Origin: Lysobacterales bacterium
GTDB taxonomy: Bacteria; Pseudomonadota; Gammaproteobacteria; Xanthomonadales; Marinicellaceae
Direction: 5' to 3'
Assembly (NCBI GenBank): GCA_026982315.1
Contig: JALSHI010000065.1
Coordinates: forward strand, 1 to 42,028
Length of the DNA stretch: 42,028 nucleotides
Shown here: one piece after another, positions 19,658 to 23,437 of the stretch
How the letters are laid out: each line of letters starts with the position of its first letter
How positions within the stretch are numbered: position 1 is the stretch's first letter
Made by a program: the position numbers and the translations under genes
Notes under the pieces: generated by a model
Seen by the model: only the letters and a program-made list of their open reading frames with translations
Told to the model about the DNA's origin: nothing
Databases searched by the model: none

Positions 19658-21220
19658 TTAACGCGCTGCCGGCTCCTTCTGCAGCCGCTCGGCGGCCTTG
19701 TCCACCACCAGATGATAAGTCGGGTCCTCCACCACATTGACTTCGACCAGATCACCGGCCGTTTTCAACAGGCTGCGGCATTCCGGGCTCAGGTGAACCA
19801 GGTGCAGACGCTTTCCGGCCCGTTTATAACGCTCGGCCAGCTTGTCAATGGCCTCCAGGGCGGAATGATCCACTACCCGGGAGTTCTGAAAATCCACAAT
19901 CACTTCATCAGGGTCGGCCCTGGGCGTAAACAATTCCTGAAAGTTCTGGGTTGAAGCAAAAAACAACGGCCCACTCAAGGCATAGACCTTGCCGCCTTTT
20001 TCATTGAAATATACCCGCACGCCAATATGCTTGGCATGTTGCCAGGCAAACACCAAAGCAGAAAGAATCACACCAGTGACCACCGCCACAGCCAAATCAA
20101 AGAATACCGTCACCACAGCCACAGTGATACCAATGACCACATCCGGCCAGGGTACTTTGCCAAAGAGTTTGAAACTACCCCACTCAAAAGTGCCAATCAC
20201 CACCATAAACATCACACCAATCAACACGGCAATCGGAATGCGCTCTATCAAAGGCGAGCCCACCAGAATAAAAAGCAACAAGAACACACCTGTGGCAATT
20301 CTGGAAAGACGCCCTCGCCCGCCCGATTTGATATTGATCATGCTCTGCCCGACCATGGCGCAACCACCCATACCACCAAACAGCCCTGTGACCGTATTGG
20401 CGACACCCTGGCCGATACATTCCTGATTCGGGCGCCCCACCGTTTCCGTCAACTCATCCACCAGGTTCAACGTCAACAGACTTTCAATCAGACCCACCAG
20501 CGCCATCACAAAAGCATAGGGAAAAACAATCGTAAACGTCTCCCAATTCCACGGCACATCCGGTATGTGGAAACGGGGTAAATCGCCAGCGATAGACGCC
20601 ATATCTCCCACTGTTTTGGTATCAATGCCCAGCCCCATCACCAGCACAGTGCCAACCACGATGGCCGCCAATGTGGAAGGAATCGCCTTGGTGAGCCTGG
20701 GCAGAAACTGGATAATGGCCATGGTGACAATCGCTAAAACGGCCATCACAGCCATCGACTCCACACTCATCCAGTGTTTGTGGCCAGTTGCATCTGTTAC
20801 CTTGAAATGTTCCAGCTGCGCCAGAAAGATCACAATGGCCAGACCATTAACAAAACCCAGAAAAACCGGATAAGGCACCAGCCGAATAAACTTGCCCAGC
20901 CGCAACAGACCAAAGAGTACCTGCAAAATGCCCATTAATATCACCGCAGCAAACAAATACTCGATGCCATGCTGCATCACCAACGCCACAACCACCACGG
21001 CAATGGCGCCGGTGGCCCCTGAAATCATGCCGGGCCGCCCGCCCAGCACAGCCGCAATCAACGCCATCATAAAGGCCGCATACAAGCCCAGCAACGGGTG
21101 CACATGGGCCACCAGGGCAAAGGCCACGGCTTCTGGCACCAAAGCCAGCGCCACGGTCAGGCCAGAGAGGATGTCGTTTTTTGCATTGTCAGGAGAATGG
21201 CGGGAAATCAGGTTAAACAT
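19658..21220 (-). CDS. SulP-family anion transporter with C-terminal STAS domain
   Basis: An inner-membrane carrier of the SulP/SLC26 family, 520 residues from the ATG at 21220. The N-terminal two-thirds is a transmembrane domain with the family blocks DILSGLTVALALVPEAVAFALVA, GLYAAFMMALIAAVLGGRPGMISGATGA and GGMGGCAMVGQSMIN. The last 115 or so residues form a STAS domain (VIVDFQNSRVVDHSALEAIDKL). Members move sulfate, bicarbonate or other anions; the substrate is not readable here, and bacterial SulP proteins with this look may be sodium-dependent bicarbonate carriers. A longer frame opens at 21298, but its extra 26 codons run through a terminator-like hairpin, which argues for the start at 21220. 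No carbonic anhydrase or sulfur gene adjoins it. Confidence 0.9.
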   Translation of the reverse strand: MFNLISRHSPDNAKNDILSGLTVALALVPEAVAFALVAHVHPLLGLYAAFMMALIAAVLGGRPGMISGATGAIAVVVVALVMQHGIEYLFAAVILMGILQVLFGLLRLGKFIRLVPYPVFLGFVNGLAIVIFLAQLEHFKVTDATGHKHWMSVESMAVMAVLAIVTMAIIQFLPRLTKAIPSTLAAIVVGTVLVMGLGIDTKTVGDMASIAGDLPRFHIPDVPWNWETFTIVFPYAFVMALVGLIESLLTLNLVDELTETVGRPNQECIGQGVANTVTGLFGGMGGCAMVGQSMINIKSGGRGRLSRIATGVFLLLFILVGSPLIERIPIAVLIGVMFMVVIGTFEWGSFKLFGKVPWPDVVIGITVAVVTVFFDLAVAVVTGVILSALVFAWQHAKHIGVRVYFNEKGGKVYALSGPLFFASTQNFQELFTPRADPDEVIVDFQNSRVVDHSALEAIDKLAERYKRAGKRLHLVHLSPECRSLLKTAGDLVEVNVVEDPTYHLVVDKAAERLQKEPAAR

Positions 21221-21236
21221 GGGCTCGGCAAAATCG

Positions 21237-21302
21237 GGAAAACAAAAACCCGCGCATCCGGAGATGAACGGATAACGCGGGTGACACGAGGCTGGCATTA
21301 TA
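21237..21302 (-). promoter_or_regulatory. sulP promoter and leader with terminator-like hairpin
   Basis: On the minus strand TATAAT (plus positions 21302-21297) would start transcription near 21290. Soon after, a two-part stem forms: 7 bp (21276-21282 with 21248-21254) and 5 bp (21269-21273 with 21256-21260), with an 8-base loop and a small internal loop. A tract of five T, G and four T follows. This looks like an intrinsic terminator placed between the promoter and the sulP ATG at 21220, as in attenuators and riboswitch expression platforms. No aptamer or leader peptide was recognised. Confidence 0.55.
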
Positions 21303-21595
21303 CACGCGTATGCGCCCGGATAAGCGGACTTCTTGCGTATTCGGACAGAGCCATGACCTGTGATTTGGCTGCGATATTTATTGATACAGGGCCAGATTGT
21401 GATGTGACAAAATTTTTCACCCCATGATTGTGACCTTAACGTCTGTTTTACATGGCAGGGCTATAGTTGAGAAATTTCCGTGACTGGCTGAAAACAATCA
21501 TTACACCCCTATAGAAACGCGTCAAATTGCGATGTTAATCACAGAACCCGTTGCCCCAGGGGTGTATGACCATTGGCTAAAACAGGAGATCAGCC
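21303..21595. other. Divergent intergenic region between sulP and the DUF1800 gene
   Basis: No gene is credible here. TATAGT at 21462-21467 and TATAGA at 21510-21515 are possible -10 elements for the DUF1800 gene, but neither has a good -35. A strong ribosome binding site (AGGAGA) lies 7 bases before the ATG at 21596. Confidence 0.4.
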
Positions 21596-23437
21596 ATGTA
21601 TCTGGATTACAACAAGAAAAACGATGCGTTTGTCCAACGCAGTCAACCTTTTGCCAAAAAGCTTCAGCAGTTAATTGCCGGGCCGGTCAGTCAGGTTCCT
21701 GCCTCGACAAAAAAACACTTTCAGGCACTGGCCACTGACCATGAAAAAAGCGCCAATGGAGCCCTGCCGTCCCTGACATACCGCGTCCTCAGCAAAATGG
21801 CCTTTGGGCCTTCTCCGGCGGATATGGACTGGATAGCAAGCTTACCCGGCGCCACTGAACAGGACCGAGTGCTGGCGTATATCGACCAACAGCTAAACCC
21901 GGCGGGTATTGACGACTCAGCCCTGGAAGCCCTGTTGGCGACGGATTTTCCAACCTTGAACAAAAGCCGGGCGCAACTGTGGGCGGAGCACTACATGGTC
22001 GCAGATACTGCTCCCAACTTCTGGGAAATCCGTACTCAACCAGCCTGGGAACTGGGGCAGGCCACTTTTGCTCGCGCCCTGAAAAGCAAACGGCAACTGG
22101 AACATGTGCTCAGTGATTTCTGGTTTAATCACTTTAATGTCTATGCCGATGACACCCCAATCTTATCCATGTTGGTGCACTACGAACGCGATGTTATCCG
22201 GCAACATGTGTTGGGCAATTTTCGCGATATGCTAATGGCTGTCACACGCTCTGTGTGCATGGGGTTCTACCTGGATAATGCCACCAGCAATCAATACGGA
22301 CCTAACGAAAATTATGCTCGTGAGCTGCTGGAGCTGTATACCCTGGGTGCTGGCAACTATTACCAGCACCTGCCCTGGGACCAGGTGCCTGTAGACGGAC
22401 AAGGGCGGCGTGTCGGCTATGTGGAAGCGGATGTCCTTGAATTTGCCCGCGCCCTCACCGGCTGGTCCTACGATGGCGCCATGTGGGAAGATTATCAAAA
22501 TGGCAACACTCCCACCGGCGCGTTTTTATTCCGTGACGGCAACAGTTGGCCCATGGATTTTCATGACCGGGGGCAGAAACGCGTGCTGGGACAATACTTT
22601 GATTATGACCCCAATAACCCGCAAAAAGACCTCACCGATATTATCGACATGCTCTGCGAACACCCGGGAACCGCCGGATTTATCGCCCAAAAACTGTGTG
22701 TGCGTTTTGTCAGCGACAACCCGCCCCAAAGCCTGGTGGATCAAGTGGCCGCCACCTTCCAACAAAACTGGCAAGCGCCGGATCAATTAAAACAGGTGAT
22801 GGACGTGATTTTAAAGTCGCCGGAATTTCTTAACACCTGGGGCGAAAAGGTTAAACGCCCATTTGAAAAAGTCATCGCCTCCATGCGTGCGGTTGAATTC
22901 GACCATAGTTTTTATCCTGGCTTCCCTGGCATCCCAGACACCCATCCACGCTACCAGGAGCTGTATTACACCAACTGGATATCCTGGACGTACCTCAACT
23001 CTGGCCAGCGTTTGTATCACTGGGCGGCGCCCAATGGCTTTCCTGACAAAAAGGGTGCCTGGCTGGGCGCTTCCAGCCTGATGGCCACCTGGAATACCCA
23101 GGAGTTATTTTGCCAATTGCCCCTTGATGACGCGTTGCCGGAAATGGCGCCGATTGTCACTCGCACCATGGCGCACTTCAACACCACGGGGCAAACAGTC
23201 TCCGCCGAAAACCTGGTGAATTACTGGTATCCGAAAATTTGTGATGTGCCCGCCACTGGCGCAGTGCGCCAGACGCTCATTGATTTTATGAGTATGGCTG
23301 ACAGCAGTAACCCGGTTCCCGGAAATCCCACTGACCCCATTGACCTGACCACCAATGAATGGCCTTCCTACAACCAGGCACGATTACGCACCATGGTGTC
23401 CATGATTACCATGTCACGTGACTTTATGAACCGCTAG
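21596..23437 (+). CDS. DUF1800 family protein
   Basis: A 613-residue member of the DUF1800 family, a widespread group of unknown biochemical function nearly always encoded beside a DUF1501 gene, as here. The family signature NYARELLELYTLG begins at N239, and FWFNHFNVYAD and ALTGWSYDG flank it. The C-terminal region carries VKRPFEKVIASMR, GQRLYHWAAPNGFPDKKGAWL and a closing MVSMITMSRDFMNR. Unlike many relatives, the N-terminus (MYLDYNKKNDAF) shows no Sec or Tat signal. The start is fixed by a good AGGAGA site at proper spacing, and no in-frame start lies upstream. It ends 13 bases before the DUF1501 gene, so the two are co-transcribed. Role unknown. Confidence 0.87.
   Translation: MYLDYNKKNDAFVQRSQPFAKKLQQLIAGPVSQVPASTKKHFQALATDHEKSANGALPSLTYRVLSKMAFGPSPADMDWIASLPGATEQDRVLAYIDQQLNPAGIDDSALEALLATDFPTLNKSRAQLWAEHYMVADTAPNFWEIRTQPAWELGQATFARALKSKRQLEHVLSDFWFNHFNVYADDTPILSMLVHYERDVIRQHVLGNFRDMLMAVTRSVCMGFYLDNATSNQYGPNENYARELLELYTLGAGNYYQHLPWDQVPVDGQGRRVGYVEADVLEFARALTGWSYDGAMWEDYQNGNTPTGAFLFRDGNSWPMDFHDRGQKRVLGQYFDYDPNNPQKDLTDIIDMLCEHPGTAGFIAQKLCVRFVSDNPPQSLVDQVAATFQQNWQAPDQLKQVMDVILKSPEFLNTWGEKVKRPFEKVIASMRAVEFDHSFYPGFPGIPDTHPRYQELYYTNWISWTYLNSGQRLYHWAAPNGFPDKKGAWLGASSLMATWNTQELFCQLPLDDALPEMAPIVTRTMAHFNTTGQTVSAENLVNYWYPKICDVPATGAVRQTLIDFMSMADSSNPVPGNPTDPIDLTTNEWPSYNQARLRTMVSMITMSRDFMNR

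Follow-up and report, generated by a model that had tools for sequence, protein, structure and literature searches.

Textbook cases of transcription termination in the leader of a gene have a long sensing leader. The available portion of a report on Escherichia coli describes premature termination in leaders as widespread (PMC7815308). According to the portions of two further reports available to us (PMC7969949, PMC9371919), AlpA of Pseudomonas aeruginosa is a factor loaded at the promoter that allows RNA polymerase to pass a terminator located close to the start; at PA0807, this terminator was predicted from 26 bp downstream of the start. Here we analyze a leader from a Lysobacterales bacterium (genome G000) in which a terminator-like hairpin stands between a predicted promoter and the start codon of sulP. 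The window, i.e., the whole stretch of DNA that was analyzed, comprises 42,028 nucleotides. We consider it probable, at roughly two-thirds (0.66), that an intrinsic (Rho-independent) terminator in the 5' leader limits transcription of sulP and releases an RNA of ~50 nt.

Layout of the sulP leader

The features of the locus are as follows.

21303..21319, minus strand: 17-nt stretch upstream of the -10 box; 11/17 identical in the relative G001, with GGGCG and GTG kept
21302-21297, minus strand: -10 box TATAAT of the likely (predicted) sulP promoter; identical in G001 (L032)
21290..21293, minus strand: expected transcription start, placed by the usual distance from -10 to +1
21248..21282, minus strand: predicted terminator stem-loop including the outer A-U pair; 12 core pairs, one bulge, 8-nt loop
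21281-21249, minus strand: 33-nt stem-loop without the outer A-U pair, read from the sequence
21281-21275 and 21273-21269, pairing with 21260-21256 and 21255-21249, minus strand: stem arms
21274, minus strand: bulged T that interrupts the 5' stem arm
21282/21248, minus strand: outer A-U pair
21268-21261, minus strand: hairpin loop, 8 nt
21248-21239, minus strand: T-tract T5GT4; T8 in G001
21220-21218, minus strand: sulP start codon ATG, 18 nt beyond the T-tract
21241..21308, minus strand: block conserved between G000 and G001; 70.6% identity over 68 nt, E 1.2e-5 (BLASTN of the intergenic gap)
19658..21220, minus strand: sulP, 520 amino acids, SulP/SLC26-type anion transporter with a STAS domain
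21596..23437, plus strand: divergent neighboring gene, presumably DUF1800-like; no NCBIfam match

On the minus strand, the 17-nt stretch with its GGGCG is followed by TATAAT, GCC, a 12-nt tail, the 33-nt stem-loop, T5GT4, 18 nt, and the ATG, which confirms the order of TATAAT, two-part hairpin, and T-tract given for this leader in the preliminary description. The predicted terminator is thus in sense orientation between the predicted promoter and the gene start, and about 9 to 12 nt separate the expected transcription start from the stem. The T-tract is separated from the ATG by only 18 nt, and the neighboring gene points away; polymerase from this promoter would therefore have to pass the terminator to reach sulP.

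The domain search identified the sulP product as a SulP transporter with a STAS domain. The protein scored below the cut-offs of the NCBIfam models for sulP, DauA, and BicA, and its best match among solved structures was 5da0, annotated as "Sulphate transporter" (E 9e-123). An ATG, GTG, or TTG was present at the aligned start in 78 of 108 sulP leaders, the window's own included, and by this comparison the ATG at 21220 is the family start of sulP. The preliminary description had also held that a longer open frame, reaching to 21298, does not mark the real start, and rightly so: in G001, a TGA in the sulP frame precedes the corresponding ATG by 9 nt, and the ATG contained in TATAATG is out of frame, 74 nt away from that of sulP.

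A simple promoter scan listed no minus-strand promoter at the TATAAT at 21302, and there was no -35 element near consensus. The -10 box is followed by GCC in both G000 and G001, and these nine positions are identical (9/9). The identity of 11/17 upstream of the -10 box corresponds to a binomial P of 0.0013 at a background of 27% or 0.012 at 35%, for a stretch picked after the alignment had been seen; no second copy of this stretch was found within 2 mismatches in G000 or G001. A pattern of the sulP promoter, searched with up to 3 mismatches, matched 9 sites in G000, 4 in G001, and 5 in G002, the third genome of the genus, versus 4, 1, and 1 sites, respectively, for the reversed pattern. Among the 10 of these 18 sites that were inspected by eye, a terminator follows only the two sulP ones.

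Predicted strength of the hairpin as an intrinsic terminator

The GC-rich stem is followed directly by a U-tract, and the hairpin is stronger than expected by chance under a terminator score after d'Aubenton Carafa. (i) The score is 38.4 in G000; the 156-nt leader was shuffled 500 times with dinucleotides preserved, and the best shuffle scored 12.9. (ii) The G001 hairpin scores 41.8, which was likewise matched by 0/500 shuffles. (iii) A 56-nt piece folds with -21.5 kcal/mol (z -4.8), and 0/200 shuffles were as good. A 78-nt piece was less striking (z -2.4; 2/200 shuffles as good), and the fold of the whole last 80 nt is modest, with z -1.87 in G000 (12th of 108 leaders) and z -2.27 in G001 (7th). 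(iv) Under the hairpin limits of our genome scan, the score is 36.6, which puts the hairpin 17th of the 231 terminator-like places that the scan listed over 307,886 bases of the G000 genome. A simple terminator scan did not list the hairpin at 21281-21249, perhaps owing to the bulge.

In the same 307,886 bases, a near -10 sequence within 32 nt upstream accompanied 11 of the 231 places, a frame of at least 120 amino acids starting within 90 nt accompanied 88, and both were present at 8; by eye, most such frames are chance occurrences or lie inside genes. One promoter- and terminator-like layout precedes a 278-amino-acid frame on contig C17 of G000 (L128:160-245); its stem is preceded by TAAAAT at a distance of 25 nt and by TATAAT at 1 nt. 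Another strong terminator-like hairpin (-21.4 kcal/mol; L112:13791, minus strand) has a T-run that starts 62 nt before a gene that resembles a response regulator by eye.

The position of the stem near the expected 5' end, where it could protect sulP mRNA, also fits an element that mainly stabilizes the 5' end of the mRNA and offers a ribosome stand-by site, with little termination. By eye there is no good Shine-Dalgarno sequence before the sulP ATG in either species, so that initiation might benefit from a U-rich stretch near -20. However, in both species the T-tract directly adjoins the base of the stem, and the hairpin scores as a strong terminator, neither of which is needed for stability alone, and we regard this alternative as unlikely. 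Binding of CsrA, the motif of which we take to be GGA, was considered and dropped, since the GGA of both hairpins lies in the stem (3' arm) and not in the loop.

Conservation in the close relative G001

The only close relative found with sulP was G001 (contig C315, evidently the same as L032, WGBZ01000315.1), the SulP of which is 90% identical; the next best SulP matches were at most 75% identical. The leaders of G000 and G001 were aligned without gaps, anchored on TATAATGCC. The T-tract is identical at 7/8 positions, the stem-loop at 22/33, with a diverged loop, and the 5' tail at 5/12. Upstream of the 17-nt stretch, identity amounts to 2/6 in the adjoining hexamer, 6/20 in the next 20 nt, and 21/100 in a further 100 nt. 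Third codon positions of sulP are 52% identical, indicating a strongly diverged background. In the BLASTN search over the intergenic gap, the second match below E 0.01 was the start of the divergent gene (E 5e-4), and other matches had E values of 0.95 or weaker; the upstream gene is divergent in G000 and, judging by its start MYLD, in G001.

The distance from the -10 box to the stem is 15 nt in both genomes, and all 12 stem pairs are kept despite 5 stem substitutions. Four pairs differ between G000 and G001, one of them on both sides (G-C to U-A). In simulations that assume two-thirds transitions, 5 random stem substitutions kept all 12 pairs in 3,093 of 200,000 trials (1.5%), and 11 substitutions placed anywhere in the 33 nt kept all pairs in 720 of 200,000 (0.4%). 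A covariation control by pair shuffling, with only two sequences to draw on, was uninformative in that 237/500 shuffles did as well. The two species differ in tail and loop but share the pairing; the structure, rather than a bound sequence, appears to be under selection in this leader.

Joint absence in G002 and searches for other copies

No SulP match was obtained at E 1e-5 in G002 (assembly completeness ~90%, contamination 6%). In this genome, the SDR and DUF1800-like matches share a contig, and the gap of 248 nt between them, which includes the SDR stop codon, contains neither sulP nor a comparable hairpin, the best one having -11.2 kcal/mol and reaching into the SDR gene. The DUF1800-like side of the gap matches G001 (72% over 156 aligned positions). 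At this locus (L140; G002:C85:8200-8700), the genomes of the genus differ in whether sulP, with promoter and hairpin, stands between its two flanking genes, SDR and DUF1800-like. The joint absence of sulP, promoter block, and hairpin indicates that the element goes with sulP. Taken together with the conservation of -10 box, spacing, stem, and T-tract in G001, this supports the attenuator-like layout proposed in the preliminary description.

An RNA model of the element (R1) gave, at E 1, one match in G000, one in G001, and none in G002. At E 0.01, a search of 299 genomes of the order, which had been taken from a larger group under stricter filters, gave matches in three, namely, G000, G001, and G137. 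The G137 match covers the hairpin only, and its 27.9 bits (E 0.009 per genome) would be expected by chance over 299 genomes.

A further possibility is that the leader encodes a short trans-acting small RNA (~50 nt), with sulP merely carried along by read-through; IspZ, made from the ispU leader of E. coli, is an example of such an arrangement. The leader has its own -10 box and terminator, and the available portion of the E. coli report provides a precedent with transcripts of 60 and 81 nt (PMC7815308). However, the parts capable of pairing, the tail (5/12) and the loop, have diverged while the structure is kept, and the hairpin is missing together with sulP in G002. Of the suggestion in the preliminary description of a very short stand-alone RNA, the RNA of ~50 nt stands as the expected product of termination, but no conserved single-stranded seed for pairing was seen in the comparison of G000 with G001. 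A regulatory role in trans is thus quite doubtful.

Leaders of sulP in other clades

We scored 108 sulP leaders from L001 to L111, excluding L022 (cut off) and L001 and L003, the only duplicates removed. In 30 of the leaders, the aligned position holds no start codon, and distances for these are approximate. A terminator-like hairpin in the last 140 nt was present in 46, 26, and 17 of the 108 leaders at -6, -10, and -15 kcal/mol or better, respectively, compared with 62, 14, and 0 of 324 shuffled controls under the same energy rule. Many of these hairpins before sulP probably end upstream genes. Eight leaders (L002, L032, L059, L066, L069, L075, L080, and L105) had a terminator with a score of at least 10 no more than 60 nt from the aligned start, and a loosely defined -10 sequence lay upstream of the scored terminator in four of them (L002, L032, L066, and L080); in the two Pseudoalteromonas cases among these four, a likelier -10 (TAGAAT) sits inside the hairpin. 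The 106 other leaders, whose SulP proteins are at most 75% identical, all lacked the exact layout of TATAAT, hairpin, and T-tract. Lack of conservation of the hairpin in relatives had been named beforehand as evidence against the element; it does apply to distant sulP genes but not to the close relative G001.

Several of these leaders have arrangements of their own. (i) In Pseudoalteromonas (L066, L069, L075, and L080), a terminator-shaped inverted repeat 33 to 38 nt before sulP encloses the likely -10 sequence (TAGAAT/TACAAT) and is followed by a T-run. (ii) In UBA652 (L059:2861-3001), a tRNA-Leu gene is followed by a terminator, and the sulP ATG stands 22 nt beyond the point where the T-run of this terminator starts, with no near-consensus -10 in between; this sulP may also depend on terminator read-through. 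(iii) In a Massilia MAG (L105:395-462), sulP is separated from an upstream gene, cytochrome-like by eye, by a very strong terminator (about -34 kcal/mol), the T-run of which begins ~33 nt before the aligned start. (iv) Some Sedimenticola-like leaders among L033 to L040 have a small hairpin without a T-tract, e.g., ATTCTCCAC..GTGGGGAAT in L036 and L038.

Terminators that seem to end upstream genes thus precede sulP elsewhere, as behind the tRNA-Leu gene of L059, and the hairpin of the window might likewise be the terminator of an upstream transcript unrelated to sulP, or a chance structure. Against this, the layout is conserved in G001, the terminator score was reached by 0/500 shuffles in each genome, the next gene upstream is divergent, little is conserved above the promoter block, and G002 lacks both sulP and the hairpin; such an origin is very unlikely.

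Least probable of all is a riboswitch or a ribosome-dependent (leader-peptide) attenuator that senses sulfate, bicarbonate, or an amino acid: a terminator before a gene is the usual riboswitch expression platform, but the ~9 to 12 nt from the expected start to the stem hold no sequence for an aptamer or antiterminator, Rfam gave no match at gathering score across the window, tail (5/12) and loop are unconserved, the DNA upstream of the promoter block is not conserved, and possible short reading frames differ by eye between G000 and G001. The Rfam result agrees with the preliminary description, which had recognized no known aptamer, and leaves its proposal of a riboswitch expression platform unsupported. 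At E 10, Rfam returned over 21100-21650 a single chance match below gathering score, to a lncRNA model (E 1.2).

Discussion

In the reading that we favor, a promoter-proximal intrinsic terminator, polymerase would start at the predicted promoter with its -10 box at 21302, the hairpin and U-tract would be made within the first ~50 nt of the transcript, the short RNA would mostly be released at the U-tract, and sulP would be transcribed by those polymerases that read through. We infer promoter use, termination efficiency, and limitation of sulP by read-through from the sequences, and a fixed brake and a regulated one would both fit. Several points count against this reading. So close to the promoter, a strong terminator would keep sulP largely silent if nothing relieved it, and no relieving factor was found; there is one independent relative; a -35 near consensus and occurrence of the layout among the 106 other leaders are lacking; and, across clades, terminator-like hairpins ahead of sulP are no rarity.

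Since there is no space upstream for an RNA sensor, any regulation would act via the polymerase or directly on the hairpin; candidate routes via the polymerase would be antitermination, NusA/NusG-type effects, or an antiterminator loaded at the promoter. By analogy with AlpA and Q, the conserved 17-nt stretch upstream of the -10 box is suggestive of a promoter-loaded factor. That a cellular factor loads through this stretch and lets polymerase pass the terminator at ~+45 is nevertheless a long shot; if true, an anion transporter could be switched by Q/AlpA-like antitermination without any RNA sensor. Of the Q families, PF03589 had no match in the 3 genomes of the genus at E 1, and PF06530 had none over cut-off, with weak matches at 3 places in 2 of the 3 genomes (best E 0.01); the best of these seems by eye to be an ECF sigma factor. 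A second NusG-like protein (RfaH/LoaP type) was not seen with PF02357, which gave one match in G000, one in G002, and none in G001 (87% complete).

Comparison with the known systems places the leader as follows. (i) Classical leader attenuators and riboswitch platforms likewise have a terminator between promoter and gene, but the sulP leader is too short for a sensor, and neither an alternative antiterminator hairpin nor a conserved leader peptide was seen by eye. With a conserved terminator about ten bases after the expected start, the polymerase or the hairpin itself would be left as the control point. (ii) AlpA-controlled promoters of P. aeruginosa and those of phage Q likewise have an intrinsic terminator shortly after the promoter, as far as the available portions of the reports describe them (PMC7969949, PMC9371919). 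The AlpA motif GGGACGN5GGTA is not present as such at the sulP promoter by eye, and no -10-like pause hexamer occurs at the same place in G000 and G001 (by eye, in the alignment); the conserved stretch between -35 and -10 at sulP could be a loading site. (iii) IspZ, the 5' untranslated region RNA of ispU (uppS) in E. coli, differs in gene and organism, and it pairs with OxyS, whereas tail and loop of the sulP leader are unconserved; in the available portion of the report, it is likewise a short RNA (60 and 81 nt) thought to be ended by an intrinsic leader terminator, and its downstream gene needs read-through, as proposed here for sulP (PMC7815308). Among the matches listed in our literature search, no title reported such a leader terminator on a SulP gene. 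The sulP leader is thus a known type of element in a new place, a conclusion based on two sequences, and it would provide a small, easily tested case of promoter-proximal termination on a SulP transporter.
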